From Lentisphaerota bacterium (GTDB lineage Bacteria > Verrucomicrobiota > Kiritimatiellia > RFP12 > UBA1067), in the NCBI GenBank assembly GCA_022839525.1, contig JALHET010000178.1, forward strand, positions 1 through 5,081: DNA of 5,081 nt, given 5' to 3'. This document shows positions 1-5,081 of this stretch, piece by piece. Under the pieces are notes generated by a model that had not been told where the DNA came from, ran no database searches, and was given only the letters and a program-made list of their open reading frames with translations. Within the stretch, counting starts at the first letter, position 1, and every line of letters begins with the position of its first letter. The position numbers and the translations under genes were made by a program.

Positions 1-209
1 ATGGGTTCGACGGTCGCTGACGCAACCATCATCGGCGAGGATTCGACCGCGATCGAGGCCCCTGTGCCTATGGACCTGTGGAAACTCGCGGGCGCCGCGA
101 GTATGAGCGCCACACAAGCGGCCGCGACGAGAGCTGCCCCGCCCAAGGCGGGGGCCGAGACGCGATCACGGAGCCCGCGCCAGTAACTCGGCCGCAGCCT
201 CGAGGCTTC
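1..209 (-). other. Non-HemW tail of the minus-strand frame, with one predicted membrane segment
   Basis: From about residue 135 the frame reads a basic stretch (RLRPSYWRGLRDRV, residues 138-151) followed by an Ala/Val/Leu-rich hydrophobic run at about residues 155-173 (bases 93-149), then a Ser/Val-rich segment to the window edge. HemW is soluble and has no such segment. A basic stretch, single helix and short acidic tail are seen in the C-terminal part of membrane anti-sigma factors, but nothing here proves that family. Codons keep a high GC third position, so the stretch looks coding in this direction. An alternative is that HemW ends soon after the junction: a +2 frame reads LEAAAELLARAP and then meets TGA. 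Confidence 0.4.
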
Positions 210-611
210 GATACGCGCAAGCGTCGCGTCATCGAAACTTTGAACGCCGATGCTCAGCCTGTTAACGCCCAGTTTTCTGAGCGTGTCCAGCAGTGGCCTG
301 TTCACAGAGGCCGGGTTCAATTCGACCGTCCACTCTTCGACCGAGGCGAAAGAGAGGTGTTCGGAGAGCCGCTCAATGAGGCGCGCGAGTCCGGCTCCGC
401 CGAGGAGGGCGGGAGTTCCGCCGCCCATGTAAACCGTCCGGGGTGAAAACCGCGTGATTTTCGGTCTGGCCTTGGCGACGAGTTCCAGTTCCTTGGACGG
501 CAGGGGGGGGTAAAGCCCTGTGAGATGCGCGTCGTTCAACACGGAATAGAACCCGCAATAGTGACACTTGCCGTCGCAGAAGGGGACATGGATGTACAGG
601 TGGGGAATCAT
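1..611 (-). CDS. hemW: HemW-like radical SAM protein, N-terminal part only, running in frame into an unrelated tail and off the window edge
   Basis: The frame starts at ATG 611-609 and stays open to base 1 (203 complete codons). Residues 5-23 read LYIHVPFCDGKCHYCGFYS, with the three cysteines (12, 16, 19) that hold the 4Fe-4S cluster in radical SAM enzymes. GGGTP lies at 63-67 (SAM binding), ELNPAS at 97-102 and LSIGVQSFDDATL at 119-131. These are hallmarks of the HemW/coproporphyrinogen-III-oxidase-like family; HemW proper is regarded as a haem chaperone in the cytoplasm. The expected continuation (LGRxH, then an IDLIxGLPG-type block) is absent: after Ile134 (base 210) the residues no longer resemble HemW. 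The family is usually about 370-400 residues, so only the first third is here. No clear Shine-Dalgarno precedes 611; an in-frame ATG at 635 would add eight residues. The gene is divergent from the hydrolase at 778. The family call is strong; HemW versus a paralogue is less sure, and the product as drawn is probably not functional. Confidence 0.72.
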   Translation of the reverse strand, partial: MIPHLYIHVPFCDGKCHYCGFYSVLNDAHLTGLYPPLPSKELELVAKARPKITRFSPRTVYMGGGTPALLGGAGLARLIERLSEHLSFASVEEWTVELNPASVNRPLLDTLRKLGVNRLSIGVQSFDDATLARIEASRLRPSYWRGLRDRVSAPALGGAALVAAACVALILAAPASFHRSIGTGASIAVESSPMMVASATVEP

Positions 612-725
612 ACGTGTGCAGACAGCATACCACATCCCGTCCCGCCAAGGAGGGGGGAAATCATCGCAATGCCGGAACGAAACGGCGTGGGCACCCGTCC
701 GCGCCTTGTTGGTGTCAGCCGCCTT

Positions 726-777: not shown

Positions 778-1572
778 ATGAAATGGATCCCCTGTTGCTT
801 CCTTGCTGTTTCTGTGGCGCAGGCGCAGTTTGCCGTCGAGGAGATGCTGGCACCGCATGTCTACACGAACAGCACAGGGGAGACGTTCCCCTATCGCATG
901 AGGGCGCCGCAGTTTCCGGCGGCAGGGCGGAAATATCCTCTGATCCTGTTCCTGCACGGGTCGGGTCAATGCGGGACTGACAATCTGGCTCAGCTCAAGG
1001 CGGGGGTGCCCGCGCTGATGTCGACGTTGCTCAAAACGCCGGAACCGGTGATGGTCGTGGCGCCGCAGTGCCAGGCCGGAAACTGGTGGGTCAAGCGGCT
1101 GGCCATGCGGGAGGATTATGCCGCCGCACGCGAACCTACGCCCGCGTTGGAGGTCGCGCTGGAGATTTGCCGGTATCTCGTGGCGGAACGGCAGGCCGAT
1201 CCGGACCGGCTATACATTACGGGGCTGTCGCTCGGCGGGTTCGGCACCTGGGACGCGGTTCAGCGCGAGCCCTCCCTGTTTGCGGCCGCCATTCCTGTTT
1301 GCGGCGGCGGCGATATCCGGCGCGTACAGCCAATCAAAAAGTTGCCGGTTTGGATTTTCCATGGGACGGAGGACAAGAATGTCCCCGTCGCATGCTCCCG
1401 GCGGATGGCCGAGGCCTTGAAGCTCGCCGGGAATTCACATGTCCGGTACACCGAGTATGAGAAGGCGAACCACTCCATTTGGGATCGCGTGTATGCGGAT
1501 CCGAAAGTGATCGGGTGGTTGTTGCAACAGAACAAGGCGAGGAAACCGTGGTGGAGGTTTTGGGAAAAATGA
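778..1572 (+). CDS. Exported alpha/beta hydrolase (COG4099-like predicted peptidase/esterase)
   Basis: 264 residues. Residues 1-16 look like a short signal peptide, with probable cleavage after AQA (14-16), so the enzyme should act outside the cytoplasm. The core is an alpha/beta hydrolase: LILFLHGSGQCGTDN at 55-69 carries the oxyanion-hole HGSG (60-63); GLSLGG at 149-154 is the nucleophile elbow with Ser151; HGTEDKNVP at 195-203 supplies Asp199; and NHSIWD at 231-236 supplies His232. The triad is complete. This arrangement is typical of the phospholipase/carboxylesterase and prolyl-oligopeptidase-like group, often called predicted peptidase or PHB-depolymerase-like; the natural substrate (ester or peptide) cannot be read from sequence. 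The C-terminus (KPWWRFWEK) is unusually rich in Trp and Lys. Its start follows the predicted promoter and has only a weak GGTGG ribosome site at 772-776. The stop overlaps the next start (ATGA), so the two are probably translationally coupled. Confidence 0.88.
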   Translation: MKWIPCCFLAVSVAQAQFAVEEMLAPHVYTNSTGETFPYRMRAPQFPAAGRKYPLILFLHGSGQCGTDNLAQLKAGVPALMSTLLKTPEPVMVVAPQCQAGNWWVKRLAMREDYAAAREPTPALEVALEICRYLVAERQADPDRLYITGLSLGGFGTWDAVQREPSLFAAAIPVCGGGDIRRVQPIKKLPVWIFHGTEDKNVPVACSRRMAEALKLAGNSHVRYTEYEKANHSIWDRVYADPKVIGWLLQQNKARKPWWRFWEK

Positions 1573-3611
1573 AGATGAGACGTTTTTTTTGTGTCACGGC
1601 GGTTGCGGCGGCATTGGGCGCGCAAGGCGTCACAAACGTGTTTGAGATGCCGGGTGTGTATCCCCGGCACCGTCACTTGCAGCAGCAGTTGATTCAGGTG
1701 GTGCGGGCGGGGCAGATTGAGGAGATGGAGCGTATCTGCCGCGACGGCGTGGCGCTGCTTCCGCAGGATCCGACATGGCAGTACAATTTGGCGTGCGCGC
1801 TGGCGTACCGGGCGGATAAAAGCGAGGCGCTGGAGGCTCTGGATCGGGCGATCGAACTGGGGTTCCGGGATGATGCGGCCATCGCGTCGGACAATGACCT
1901 CAAACACTTGAAGGGCGAAAAAAGGTTTGCCGAGCTGATCGGGAAGGCGAAACGCCTCAAAGGGCAGCCCGTGGAAGGCGTTGCGCAGGTTCAAGTCACT
2001 TCGGTCGTCATGGGGTTGCCCGCCGAGGTGAACGCGGGGAACACGCGCTGGGATTTTGAGGCCGGGTGTTTCAGGACGCTTTTCAGGCTCATGAGCCCGG
2101 ACATGAAACGCCTGTCCGCGTATGCCCCGGCGTATCAGGGGCCGGCAGCAGAGAGCCTGCGCGAATGGTTTGGGGACGGGACGGCATCCGGGAATTTCGG
2201 GGACCTTTACGTGAACCGGGACGGGGGGCACTCGCAATTGGACGTTTCGAAGTTCCCCGGGCTAACCCCTGTGGTTTATGGTGCCGAGGCTCAGAAACAC
2301 CGGGCACATCTGAGCCTGCCGAATACGCTTTTCGAGCAGCCGCTGATCGGGAATTGCTCGATGTCGATGGTGAGCGGGCCGTATTGGCGCAGCCTTCCGC
2401 GCTCGATCGTCACCGACCCTTTTCAGGCGATCGCGGCGTTCCGGTATTATGTCGGCAACCAGTGCTGGGTTTTCCCCGAGCACCGCGATTACGACCCGGA
2501 TCCCGGTGATTTGTTTCCTGTGAACGCGCCTTATTATGTGGTGAGCCAAGGCTCTTCCGGCTCCGATCAGCCGTTCCTTCAGGCGTTTGCCGCCACCCTG
2601 GCCGCTTTTCAGCCTGAGACAAAACGGTCCCTGATCCTGCAAAACCGTTTGGCTCCGACCCTGCAGATGATCCTCCGGGCAACGCAGAAAACCGTGAGGG
2701 AACCGGGCGGGTATTTGACGGGAGCGGCACATCCGGTTGTGTTCGATGCGCAAAGCCTGGATGTGGAGGCCATGGTGAAGATGGCGCATGCGTTGAAACC
2801 GGAGGAAATCCTTCCTTGGGTGGCTTTGCGGACGCTCAAGGATGCCCAGCCTGAAATGGGGCGGGACTTTTTCGATTTCCGTCCAGAAGGCTTGTTCGAT
2901 ACGCCGTGCTGTATCGCGCGGGTCGTCAGGGGGGTCTCGCGCGAACGCCGCATCACGCTGGAGGCCTCTGTCCCGGCAAGGGGTACAGGGTTTGAGTTTC
3001 AGTGGGTTGTTCTGCAGGGGGATCCCAAAAAAGTGGTGATCCGGCCGCTGAACAGCGCCGCCTCGCAGGTCGAGATAGCCGTTTCCTATCATGGCCGGTT
3101 CCGTGTCTGTAATGAGAAAGGTGAACCGCAAGCGATGACGAGCAGCCGCGTCGACGTCGGATGTTTTGTAAAGTCGGGGCCGTCTTATTCGGCGCCGTCG
3201 CTGGTCTCGTTTTATTATTTGCCGAACGAAGAGCGCGTCTACCGTGACGACGGCCAGATCCTGTCGGTGGATTACACGAACGCGGGGCACCGGTATGCCG
3301 ATCCGGTGCTGACGCTGCAGAAGGGCTGGAAGGATCTTTACGAATATGATGCGCGGGGACGGCTGATGGGGTGGTACCGCAAACGGGGGGATCAGACCGA
3401 GCGCTTCACGCACGCGGGACACAAGGTGCTAAAGACCGACAAACTGAACCGCCCGATGACGGCGTGCGCGGTGCAATACCTGCCTCGCCAGACGGGGGTG
3501 GCAGGTGCGCCGCCGGCGTTGACCTGCGCCGATACGCCTCAGGTCTTCACCTACACCTATGCGGATGACGCGGATCAGGTGGGGAAACCGGTCGCGACGC
3601 TTCCGAAATAG
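1569..3611 (+). CDS. Exported 680-residue protein of unknown function with TPR-like N-terminus and YD-repeat-like C-terminal piece
   Basis: I do not recognise the family. The chosen start, ATG 1569, overlaps the hydrolase stop (ATGA) and has GGAGG at 1553-1557, 11 nt upstream; ATG 1575 is an alternative. Residues 1-20 form a signal peptide (KMRR n-region, Phe/Ala/Val core). Residues about 35-130 resemble tetratricopeptide helices: WQYNLACALAYR at 70-81 and ALEALDRAIELGF at 87-99, then a block with FAELI (120-124). Residues about 155-450 contain many aromatics and several cysteines (167, 263, 299, 447, 448) without a known catalytic motif. Residues about 455-575 look beta-rich. LYEYDARGRLMGWYRKRGD at 590-608 resembles one YD/RHS repeat, a carbohydrate-binding shell element. 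Together with the hydrolase it would act outside the cytoplasm; a scaffold or binding role for the enzyme is only a guess. No terminator is seen after the stop at 3609-3611. Confidence 0.8.
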   Translation: MKMRRFFCVTAVAAALGAQGVTNVFEMPGVYPRHRHLQQQLIQVVRAGQIEEMERICRDGVALLPQDPTWQYNLACALAYRADKSEALEALDRAIELGFRDDAAIASDNDLKHLKGEKRFAELIGKAKRLKGQPVEGVAQVQVTSVVMGLPAEVNAGNTRWDFEAGCFRTLFRLMSPDMKRLSAYAPAYQGPAAESLREWFGDGTASGNFGDLYVNRDGGHSQLDVSKFPGLTPVVYGAEAQKHRAHLSLPNTLFEQPLIGNCSMSMVSGPYWRSLPRSIVTDPFQAIAAFRYYVGNQCWVFPEHRDYDPDPGDLFPVNAPYYVVSQGSSGSDQPFLQAFAATLAAFQPETKRSLILQNRLAPTLQMILRATQKTVREPGGYLTGAAHPVVFDAQSLDVEAMVKMAHALKPEEILPWVALRTLKDAQPEMGRDFFDFRPEGLFDTPCCIARVVRGVSRERRITLEASVPARGTGFEFQWVVLQGDPKKVVIRPLNSAASQVEIAVSYHGRFRVCNEKGEPQAMTSSRVDVGCFVKSGPSYSAPSLVSFYYLPNEERVYRDDGQILSVDYTNAGHRYADPVLTLQKGWKDLYEYDARGRLMGWYRKRGDQTERFTHAGHKVLKTDKLNRPMTACAVQYLPRQTGVAGAPPALTCADTPQVFTYTYADDADQVGKPVATLPK

Positions 3612-3627
3612 CGGAAGAGGATGTGAC

Positions 3628-3899
3628 ATGCCAACGTTGCAATGGTTAGATGACGGACAGGCCCGCAGAGCCGTGGAAAAAGTGCCGTACCGCATGCTCC
3701 GGCCGGACGACACGCTGTCGTGCTGGAAAGGCGGCGGCGGGTTCCGCTTCTACCGGTTGGGCGAGACGGTCTTCGACGTCTATGGGGCGTGATCAACCCG
3801 AAGGTGATCTACGGCGAGTGGTGTCCATGGGGTGAGAAACGGCTCAAAGGGGAACAGGTGACCTTCAAGCAGATGCCGTGCGACATCCGCGTGAGGCAA
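3628..3899 (+). pseudogene. Remnant of a type III-like adenine DNA methyltransferase (Mod), three pieces joined, catalytic domain missing
   Basis: An ORF of 54 residues (3628-3792) starts at an ATG with AGAGGA six nt upstream. Residues 1-32 (MPTLQWL, then VPYRMLRPDDTLS) match the usual N-terminus of COG2189-type Mod proteins. Residues 33-54 (WKGGGGFRFYRLGETVFDVY) match a block that in full-length Mod lies hundreds of residues later. The frame stops at TGA 3790. Reading resumes in another frame from 3789 as VINPKVIYGEWCPWGEKRL, and VTFKQMPCDIRVR at 3858-3896 matches the usual Mod C-terminus. Full proteins of this kind run to roughly 550-700 residues; here about 90 remain. The SAM-binding FxGxG and catalytic DPPY motifs are both absent, so it cannot methylate DNA. 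The codon after DIRVR is CAA at 3897-3899 where TAA would end the gene. Homology is judged from memory of the family. Confidence 0.75.
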
Positions 3900-3903
3900 G
3901 GAG
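3898..3903 (+). promoter_or_regulatory. Strong ribosome binding site of the Bro-N gene
   Basis: AAGGAG lies 8 nt before ATG 3912. It decides the start of the Bro-N gene, because the frame is open upstream as far as 3720 and beyond through the Mod remnant, and a longer start would only add remnant sequence. Confidence 0.75.
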
Positions 3904-3911
3904 AAAAGAGT

Positions 3912-4748
3912 ATGACAAACGAGACATTGGTCGCTTTTGAAAACTACAAGATCCGGCGGCAGTTCGACGAATCGCGCGGCGTCTGGCTCTTTTCGGTGGT
4001 GGATATCATCCAAGTTCTCCTGCAACAACCCGATTATCAGGCTGCGCGGAACTACTGGAAGGTGCTGAAAAACCGTCTGGCCAAGGAGGGATGTCAGTCG
4101 GTTACAAATTGTAACCAACTGAAAATGGAGGCTGCGGACGGAAAGAAATACAAGACCGACGTGGCCGATCCCGAGACGCTCCTGCGCCTGATCCAGTCGG
4201 TTCCGAGTCCCAAGGCCGAGCCGATCAAGCTCTGGCTTGCGAAAGTCGGTTACGAGCGGTTGCAGGATATGGCCGACCCGGCGCGTTCGCTGGATCGCGC
4301 CCGTGAATACTGGCAGCAGCACGGCAGGAGTGAGAAGTGGATCCAACAGCGCATGATGGGGCAGGAGACACGCAACAAGCTCACCGACTACTGGAAAGAG
4401 CACGATATCAAAGACGAGCGTGAGTATGCCATTCTCACCAATCTCATCCATCGTGAGTGGTCTGGAGTCTCGGTCAAAAAACACAAAGAGTTGAAGGGAC
4501 TGGAGCGTCAAAACTTACGCGACCACATGACCGAGGCGGAATTAATCTTCACTGCCTTGGCCGAACTCGCCACCCGGCAGATTGCGGAAAGCATGAACGC
4601 CACGGGCATGCCAGAAAACAGTGTGGCCGGTAAGAAGGGCGGCGGCGTCGCAAAGAAGGCTCGGCTGGAGCTTGAGAAAAAAACCGGCAAGCAGGTGGTT
4701 TCGGGCGAGAACTATCTGGCTCTGCGGGTGTTTTCAGGCCGTTCTTGA
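3912..4748 (+). CDS. Bro-N domain protein, DinD/antirepressor-like, between mod remnant and res
   Basis: 278 residues, apparently intact. The N-terminal region is a Bro-N-type domain: WLFSVVDIIQVL at 25-36, ARNYWKVLKNRL at 45-56, VTNCNQLK at 64-71, DGKKYKTDVAD at 76-86, and LLRLIQSVPSPKAEPIKLWL at 90-109. Bro-N domains occur in phage antirepressors and baculovirus BRO proteins and bind nucleic acid. The C-terminal part (SEKWIQQRMMGQETRNKLTD at 140-159, LTNLIHREWSGVSVKKHK at 175-192, MTEAELIFTALAELATRQIA at 206-225, TGKQVVSGENYL at 258-269) is the conserved tail of the BRO/DinD-like bacterial group. It has no membrane segment or signal peptide. Its position between mod and res is the pattern in which BRO, RhuM or ORF6N proteins accompany restriction systems, which suggests a regulatory or ancillary role. 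The segment encoding VTNCNQL is a perfect DNA palindrome repeated upstream of res, so self-binding is plausible. Biochemical function is unproven. Confidence 0.85.
   Translation: MTNETLVAFENYKIRRQFDESRGVWLFSVVDIIQVLLQQPDYQAARNYWKVLKNRLAKEGCQSVTNCNQLKMEAADGKKYKTDVADPETLLRLIQSVPSPKAEPIKLWLAKVGYERLQDMADPARSLDRAREYWQQHGRSEKWIQQRMMGQETRNKLTDYWKEHDIKDEREYAILTNLIHREWSGVSVKKHKELKGLERQNLRDHMTEAELIFTALAELATRQIAESMNATGMPENSVAGKKGGGVAKKARLELEKKTGKQVVSGENYLALRVFSGRS
4096..4121 (+). repeat. 26-bp repeat copy inside the Bro-N gene, containing a perfect 17-bp palindrome
   Basis: GGTTACAAATTGTAACC at 4100-4116 has perfect 8-bp arms around a central A. The 26-bp block 4096-4121 matches 4919-4944 at 24 of 26 positions; the two differences are at 4103/4926 and 4110/4933. 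Read in the gene frame, 4101-4121 encodes VTNCNQL. Confidence 0.85.
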
Positions 4749-4770
4749 AAGCAATCCGCCTAAAAGTTAT

Positions 4771-4793
4771 AACTTATTGTGAATAAATAAGTT
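4771..4793. other. AT-rich hairpin 22 nt after the Bro-N stop
   Basis: AACTTATT (4771-4778) and AATAAGTT (4786-4793) form a perfect 8-bp stem with a 7-nt loop. The stem has only two GC pairs and is not followed by a T run, so it is a poor intrinsic terminator. It could be an operator-like inverted repeat or a mild RNA 3' end structure. Confidence 0.4.
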
Positions 4794-4922
4794 GTGACAA
4801 ACATTGTTTTCATTCTGGCATGTGTTTAAGTGTGCTTTGAATCTTACAAATCGCGTTTTGTGAGACAAACAGCTTTGAGGCGAATGAATGAGACGCAAGA
4901 GACACGGCATAAAAGGTTAGTC

Positions 4923-4960
4923 GGTGACAAATCGTAACCAACTGGTGACAAATTGTCACC
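4923..4960. promoter_or_regulatory. Two tandem palindromes upstream of res, candidate paired operators
   Basis: The first, GGTGACAAATCGTAACC (4923-4939), is imperfect. The second, GGTGACAAATTGTCACC (4944-4960), has perfect 8-bp arms around one central base. Their centres, 4931 and 4952, are 21 bp apart, two turns of B-DNA, so two dimers would bind the same face. They lie 71-108 bp before the res ATG. The same palindrome type lies in the Bro-N gene at 4100-4116. Direct evidence is limited to the symmetry and repetition; the binding protein is inferred. Confidence 0.6.
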
Positions 4961-4984
4961 GGTTGGAGGGCGGTCTGTGTCCGG

Positions 4985-5011
4985 TCTCTGCGTTCCTTGC
5001 ATTCTTTGCGG
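4985..5011 (+). repeat. Three imperfect 9-bp tandem repeats before res
   Basis: TCTCTGCGT, TCCTTGCAT and TCTTTGCGG follow one another without gaps. The block ends 19 nt before the res start. I recall similar TTCTTTGCGG-type nonamer strings as common intergenic repeats in Verrucomicrobiota, Planctomycetota and others; that resemblance is from memory. A related, inverted copy (ACGCAAGAGA, 4893-4902) lies on the other side of the palindromes. Confidence 0.5.
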
Positions 5012-5030
5012 CTAAGAAAAGGGCTGTTTT

Positions 5031-5081
5031 ATGGAACTGAAAGACTTCCAAAAGGAATCGCTGGTGAAACTGACCACCTTG
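5031..5081 (+). CDS. Start of a type III restriction Res-like helicase/nuclease subunit (17 codons, cut by window end)
   Basis: ATG 5031 opens a frame reading MELKDFQKESLVKLTTL to the last base. MELKxFQ followed by an amphipathic helix is the usual N-terminus of the DEAD/DEAH-box Res proteins that accompany COG2189-type Mod genes; the Phe-Gln sits where the helicase Q-motif region begins. AAGGG at 5019-5023 is a moderate ribosome site. With only 17 residues the call depends heavily on the Mod remnant upstream. Res normally needs Mod for DNA recognition, so on its own it would be expected to be inactive unless another Mod is supplied. Whether the gene is intact cannot be judged. Confidence 0.6.
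   Translation, partial: MELKDFQKESLVKLTTL

Follow-up and report, generated by a model that had tools for sequence, protein, structure and literature searches.

The Bro-N gene and its palindromes

Why should a palindrome lie within the codons of a gene for a putative DNA-binding protein, and recur twice in front of the gene that follows? This question is raised by the 5,081-nt stretch of DNA analysed here (hereafter the window), in which a Bro-N gene precedes the start of a type III res-like gene. The features on which the analysis relies are the following:

3912–4748, + strand: Bro-N gene of the PADLOC PDC-S13 type, 278 aa (Pfam Bro-N, E 9.9e-7)
4035–4088, + strand: predicted recognition helix, codons 42–59 (helix in the AlphaFold2 model; residues 46, 47, 50, 51 and 55 covary with the half-site)
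4095–4121, + strand: palindrome of 27 bp inside the gene, centre 4108; predicted to be the cognate site of the Bro-N protein
4100–4116, + strand: intragenic palindrome GGTTACAAATTGTAACC, codons 64–69 of the Bro-N ORF 3912–4748
4918–4944, + strand: extragenic imperfect palindrome, full span, centre 4931, between the Bro-N gene and res
4923–4939, + strand: extragenic palindrome GGTGACAAATCGTAACC, imperfect, in the Bro-N–res gap
4939–4965, + strand: second extragenic palindrome, full span, centre 4952, 21 bp beyond centre 4931
4944–4960, + strand: extragenic palindrome GGTGACAAATTGTCACC, in the Bro-N–res gap
5031–5081, + strand: start of the type III res-like gene, of which the window includes 17 codons

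The three palindromes reported by the initial annotation, one in the Bro-N gene and two before res, were recovered by a mismatch scan: with up to 3 mismatches the window contains these three sites only (6 matches, counting both strands), against 0.05 matches expected from shuffles of the window; in 200 shuffles a count of 6 never occurred. The distance of 21 bp between the downstream centres (4931 and 4952) and the common 26-bp block were also confirmed; 24 of its 26 positions agree between 4096–4121 and 4919–4944, which as an alignment corresponds to 90% over 29 nt. The intragenic site itself is real, but its length had been understated, as it extends over 4095–4121, where 12 of 13 base pairs match around the centre at 4108, the middle base of codon 66 (read from the sequence). 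The middle copy (centre 4931) is flawed, with d2, d5 and d9 unpaired and a G.T at d13. The two downstream copies possess GTGAC-type arms in 3 of their 4 halves, and the copy in the gene is of the GTTAC type. Both extragenic sites fall within the 282-bp gap between Bro-N and res and end 66 bp before the latter.

The protein scores 29.7 bits against the Bro-N domain PF02498 (cut-off 25.6), and its residues 1–271 match the full length of the PADLOC model PDC-S13 (E 1.5e-116), a candidate phage-defence family whose name appears in none of the open-licence papers found. At least 8000 homologues were scored, all with E <= 0.001. In the AlphaFold2 model of the monomer (mean pLDDT 88.9) the stretch encoded by the palindrome comes right after the helix 42–59. 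The closest solved fold is DdrC of Deinococcus radiodurans (7udi, 8u0g and 7qvb in the PDB; Foldseek E 1.5e-7), a dimeric DNA-binding protein according to the titles of these entries, from which the Bro-N protein differs by an identity of only about 15% and a TM-score of 0.44 normalised to the query. The N-terminus of the res-like product matches that of the ORF behind the Bro-N gene in two other loci (L287 and L301) in 12 of 14 residues (E 2e-7), and over its initial 120 codons the L287 ORF matches both PADLOC REase_III (E 1.5e-23) and Pfam ResIII. In L287 the type III res frame behind Bro-N (from position 971 onward) runs into a stop within 479 codons of its start. An Rfam search returned nothing at gathering scores.

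Conservation of the palindrome among Bro-N relatives

An initial pattern scan of species genomes returned at least 118 sites, of which 77 fall within Bro-N ORFs from many phyla. The pattern leaves two letters free, namely the third base of the Val codon and the base that opens the codon after Cys; they form a base pair in 75 of these 77 ORFs, and the residue after VTNC tracks the Val codon, being His with GTG and Asn with GTT, with single later cases of Tyr with GTA and Asp with GTC.

A sample of 170 distinct Bro-N genes, mostly PDC-S13 and in a few cases PDC-S04-like, was picked by protein profile or tblastn, the genome searches contributing loci from the best 30 matches each. Duplicates, aligned spans shorter than 60 aa and genes without the motif column were dropped, and the pattern-selected loci (L001–L238 and L298–L315) were kept out; 30 of the sampled loci are from genomes reached via the pattern scan, and this subset is not independent of pattern selection. 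A palindrome with at least 6 of 9 pairs is present within 4 nt of the centre in 168 of the 170 genes, and in 157 the palindrome at the aligned place is the best one of the gene (the sole best in 122, tied with another elsewhere in 35). The peptide encoded there is variable: VTNCNQL, VTNC[HNYD], STICRQL, GTICTPL, YEKIVQL, Y[DE]KIVQL, S[DE]KIGQL and GQIVTPL all occur. Synonymous recoding of the 170 genes leaves 4.86 of 9 pairs, compared with 7.74 seen; 169 genes lie above the mean of their own synonymous null, 144 of them with p < 0.05 (of the 170). The expectation that relatives would carry a palindrome beyond what the amino acids force is therefore borne out in Bro-N genes. Because at least three kinds of Watson–Crick pair occur at positions d5–d8, the conserved property of the intragenic site is its symmetry rather than its letters.

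A further set of 40 genes was obtained as paralogues, and every one of them reaches 6 or more of 9 pairs at the best of three offsets. Paralogues within one genome share half-sites at the chance rate (5 of 65 pairs versus 3.8 expected), and on this count the idea that paralogues avoid common sites was rejected. Three small genomes (G634, G714 and G737) contain several Bro-N genes each, with mostly different palindromes; one of these genomes, of 0.8 Mb, has 7 Bro-N matches, and many of the matches in these searches are fragmentary or carry stops.

Helix residues and the letters of the half-site

Counted from codon 66, the alignment columns -15, -16, -19 and -11 correspond to V51, K50, N47 and R55 of the Bro-N protein, which are spaced as on one face of a helix. 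Outside the palindrome codons these four columns have, one gap column aside, the highest normalised mutual information with the half-site. They are also the strongest of 281 columns outside the palindrome codons in a test matched for protein identity, with columns -16, -19, -15 and -11 reaching log-odds of 3.1–4.5 against -0.02 for the median column, in a comparison whose gene pairs are not independent of each other. All 34 genes with V at -15 have A at d5, all 61 with K at -16 have C at d8, and so do all 82 with R at -20.

Taken together, residues 46, 47, 50, 51 and 55 predict the 5-bp half-site in 70% of the cases (n=152, partners less than 50% identical). Under the same identity limit the nearest whole protein succeeds in 3%, and five random variable columns in 7% on average, with a maximum of 15% over 50 draws. 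Five neighbouring column sets of our own choice, taken from the interval that separates helix and palindrome or from either flank, reach 12–28%, and these local controls count against linkage of adjacent codons as the cause. Columns nearer to the palindrome than the helix predict the half-site in 21%, so linkage alone does not explain the 70% obtained with the helix. In a hold-out of the 40 paralogue genes the half-site was correctly predicted in 23, versus 3 by the nearest protein below 50% identity; with the identity limit removed, the nearest protein predicts 7 of 40 and the helix residues 24. The prediction failed in 17 of the 40 genes.

Since the letters are predictable from the helix, neither a hairpin nor mere linkage would account for these results. 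The Bro-N protein very probably reads its own gene at the intragenic palindrome, and we regard it as highly likely, from comparison of sequences, that this palindrome is the protein's own duplex site. The proposal that a dimeric Bro-N protein has an operator-like site within its own codons thus finds strong in silico support, both in the pairing beyond the amino-acid constraint and in the helix residues that predict the letters, and it appears to hold more widely than had been suggested.

The same anatomy in other families

Stray palindromes in flanks were traced to RhuM-like and ORF6N-like ORFs. Among genes then collected through the two Pfam families, 28 of 29 ORF6N genes (10.3 of 11 pairs versus a null of 6.0) and 32 of 33 RhuM genes (10.0 pairs versus a null of 7.0) have their best palindrome at one fixed position, in both cases with a column defined as the commonest place of the best palindrome and with profiles seeded from palindrome-bearing ORFs (11 and 13 seeds, respectively), which favours positives. 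The genes with this column come from 34 ORF6N and 39 RhuM genes found, some of them in the flanks of other loci, including pattern-selected ones. As read from the sequences, the centre of the palindrome occupies the third codon position in RhuM, the first in ORF6N and the second in PDC-S13, and therefore no common peptide explains it. The best single column predicts the half-site with a success of 0.40 in RhuM (random 0.06, n=30) and only weakly, 0.15, in ORF6N (random 0.08, n=26). A solitary pattern match (L096:1008) lies within an ORF that resembles ORF6N by eye (LVTNCHQFKTMKHSSSLPYAFTEHG).

Phage ORFs of the Bro-N antirepressor type have the best palindrome 13–17 residues before the motif E[SP]GLY in 17 of 17 distinct ORFs, with 9.6 pairs versus a null of 7.0, the set being those ORFs from 48 loci that pass the motif filter, several of them near-identical. 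Many of the phage loci outside this set match in the C-terminal part only. One phage ORF (L614) combines Bro-N and ANT domains, and another (L611), outside the motif filter, exhibits 11 of 11 pairs. A pattern scan of viral contigs placed 0 of at least 121 sites inside a Bro-N ORF.

No palindrome at a common place was found in the 14 DinD-like ORFs scanned, nor in 12 KilA-N ORFs, two of which have the same palindrome and peptide (13 of 17 loci were covered, one of them yielding no such ORF). DinD-like proteins, which we take to be those relatives that match only the C-terminal half of PDC-S13 (about residues 125–277), have this half in common with it and differ in the absence of the fixed palindrome. 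Of 24 PF02498 loci, all but L525, L528 and L531 were scanned; by our count the palindrome follows the helix in 10 of these 21 ORFs and is missing there in the other 11, most of them DinD-like. Comparison across these families suggests a portable self-recognition signal that may be common to several of them.

Proposed mechanism and alternative explanations

What the computations show is the palindrome, a conservation of it that exceeds codon constraint, and letters that can be predicted from the helix; from this we infer physical binding, dimerisation, an outer contact and repression: the palindrome would probably be the specific duplex site of the Bro-N protein, read by a dimer, most likely for autorepression. 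Such a dimer could use helix 42–59 to read two half-sites, about 3–8 bp from the centre, whose middles would be about one helical turn apart, and the outer arms, conserved as A[AG]..[CT]T, may provide a second contact. With the helix codons located just 5' of the site, specificity and site would travel as a unit and diversify together. Negative autoregulation could then operate about 190 bp into the gene, with the bound protein acting as a roadblock or by occlusion. An internal operator would work behind any promoter, which would suit a solo gene in mixed neighbourhoods. The neighbourhoods of Bro-N genes are indeed mixed: among the 25 commonest neighbour families listed per scan, restriction-modification (RM), Cas, Fic and integrase families make up a few per cent each, and no conserved operon partner emerged among the ORFs on either side, 121 downstream and 118 upstream, which were chosen crudely as the longest ones. 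Because this makes an internal operator portable, we lean towards negative autoregulation from inside the gene as the most likely use of the palindrome, with a chance slightly better than even. We would advance more tentatively, as a possibility somewhat less likely than not, that in Bro-N, ORF6N, RhuM and phage antirepressors alike the coding sequence after the helix doubles as the cognate site, forming a co-diversifying module of about 100 bp that could serve as a per-copy address for self-immunity, copy-number sensing or orthogonal autorepression.

The main rival to autorepression, clearly less probable, is that the site is a self tag, which marks the DNA that carries the gene and whose occupancy tunes or shuts down a defence or antirepressor activity of the protein, for self-immunity or copy-number sensing. 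The model for this is BstA, which has a KilA-N-like domain and whose locus includes aba, a short element of cognate DNA; aba is reported to act apparently as DNA and to be cognate-specific, BstA variants having distinct cognate elements (PMC8585504). The Bro-N site resembles aba in being intragenic, cognate (in silico) and co-diversifying; besides, PDC-S13 is a phage-defence candidate and phage Bro-N genes have the same anatomy. On the other hand, aba is described there as overlapping the start of bstA, with CCCGCC direct repeats at its ends (PMC8585504), and these repeats are absent from both strands of 4080–4142. Unlike aba, the Bro-N site is a 27-bp palindrome after the helix codons, with letters largely predictable from the helix, and occurs in several families. 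No family named BstA is among the PADLOC matches at E 1e-3, PDC-S13 and PDC-S04 only, a result that bears on BstA membership only if the library includes a BstA model; and phage relatives are few (4 of 50,697 records at E 1e-5); a relative was also found in 13 plasmid records.

A wider form of the autorepression model, in which the Bro-N protein controls res via 4918–4965 in addition to itself, seems rather unlikely. The initial annotation had envisaged feedback on both genes; the site in the Bro-N gene is supported in silico, and the part concerning res is weakly supported. In favour of it, the two sites 21 bp apart end shortly before res, and arrays of sites do exist directly upstream of Bro-N genes. 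However, the two sites before res fit the V51-type half-site predicted for the Bro-N protein in only 1 of 4 halves, and the relative with a Bro-N–res pair, L287, has 4 bp between the genes and hence no room for such sites. Copies of the own type are not enriched in the flanks of the 170 loci, with 18 loci versus 25 expected at <=3 mismatches and 1 versus 0.65 at <=1 mismatch, and an own-type regulon in the flanks was rejected on the former count. A consensus promoter scan of the + strand over 3600–5081 found no sigma-70-like site. Control of res by the Bro-N protein is thus a possibility with weak support from the sequence.

The arrays have features of their own. In L281 (2379–2507) three 27-bp palindromes 51 bp apart lie upstream of a Bro-N gene that has a type I specificity gene before it and a type I restriction gene after it; in L077 (6361–6531) there are four 27-bp palindromes upstream of Bro-N, with all four letters represented at d5; and L050 (7327–7510) has four palindromes and a fifth by eye, in a stretch where no Bro-N ORF was found. 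GAAA follows 8 of the 12 palindromes in these arrays. Each member is well paired, yet d5 and the outer arms vary from one member to the next. Variation at d5 within one array is not predicted by a single specificity. A regulator that adjoins RM genes and has several palindromic sites is reminiscent of RptR, reported to be a dimeric repressor of a type I RM island; the RptR sites, however, are 6-bp TAGCTA palindromes in its own promoter (PMC12255303).

Two further kinds of extragenic site were noted. Loci L303, L315 and G277:C17 have a GGTKAC-type site about 36–58 bp upstream of a Bro-N gene whose internal palindrome is of another type, and six loci (L011, L021, L047, L070, L117 and L315) contain short Bro-N remnants centred on the palindrome, outside full genes. 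A scan of 240 genomes from a single phylum with the extended pattern found 24 sites in 18 genomes, and the reversed control gave none; 17 of these 18 genomes have a PDC-S13 match, versus 63 of the 240 overall.

It is improbable, slightly more so than control of res, that what is conserved is an intrastrand hairpin, in mRNA or single-stranded DNA, rather than a duplex site. Pairing is kept despite base changes, including those at d5 in the extragenic arrays, as a hairpin would have it. But the letters are predicted by helix residues, and among mismatches G.T is not favoured over A.C (0.30 observed versus 0.51 under the null); there is therefore no signature of a sense-strand RNA, and for want of a G.U excess the mRNA hairpin was rejected, the same figures being still compatible with an antisense transcript.

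Template switching perfects quasi-palindromes, and symmetry might accordingly be maintained by mutation; or the palindrome might itself be copied about, as a mobile footprint that stays behind. The array members, which differ and still are well-paired palindromes, and the solitary Bro-N remnants around a palindrome would agree with this explanation, which we nevertheless consider very improbable in view of the fixed position in four kinds of gene, the codon cost and the predictability from the helix.

A by-product of chance or of a conserved peptide is practically negligible as an explanation: VTNCNQL does force part of the symmetry, the synonymous null being already 4.9 of 9 pairs, but the shuffles, the synonymous null, the covariation of the free letters (K/M, 75 of 77) and the diversity of the peptides all contradict it.

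Relation to known systems

Intragenic operators, like systems of the BstA/aba kind, are already known. The lac operator O2 in lacZ is an example, a repressor site inside a coding sequence. The Bro-N site differs from it in that the gene around the site encodes the DNA-binding protein, and in that site and helix diversify together throughout the family. Among the open-licence papers found for these families in connection with palindromes, operators or RM, no report of intragenic sites appeared, nor one of such proteins reading their own genes. What appears to be new, as far as these papers go, is a site fixed behind the recognition helix that co-diversifies with it across families and is largely predictable from it.

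If our interpretation is correct, Bro-N, ORF6N and RhuM proteins, as well as the N-terminal domain of phage antirepressors, gain a specific DNA target that each gene itself reveals, and the old question of what Bro-N and related domains do becomes a direct binding test. A recognition code could be learned from thousands of natural protein–site pairs. The family would also be a clear case of a DNA site that shapes a protein sequence, in which the residue after VTNC obeys the pairing.

Other ORFs in the window

Upstream of the Bro-N gene, positions 1569–3611 (+) encode a 680-aa protein without a Pfam family and with a TPR end-of-group match. The ORF at 3–635 (-) contains HVPFCDGKCHYCGF and resembles the start of a radical SAM protein, presumably of the HemW kind. 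Between them, 778–1572 (+) encodes an alpha/beta hydrolase, with matches of both the polyhydroxyalkanoate-depolymerase-like and the prolyl-oligopeptidase-like type.
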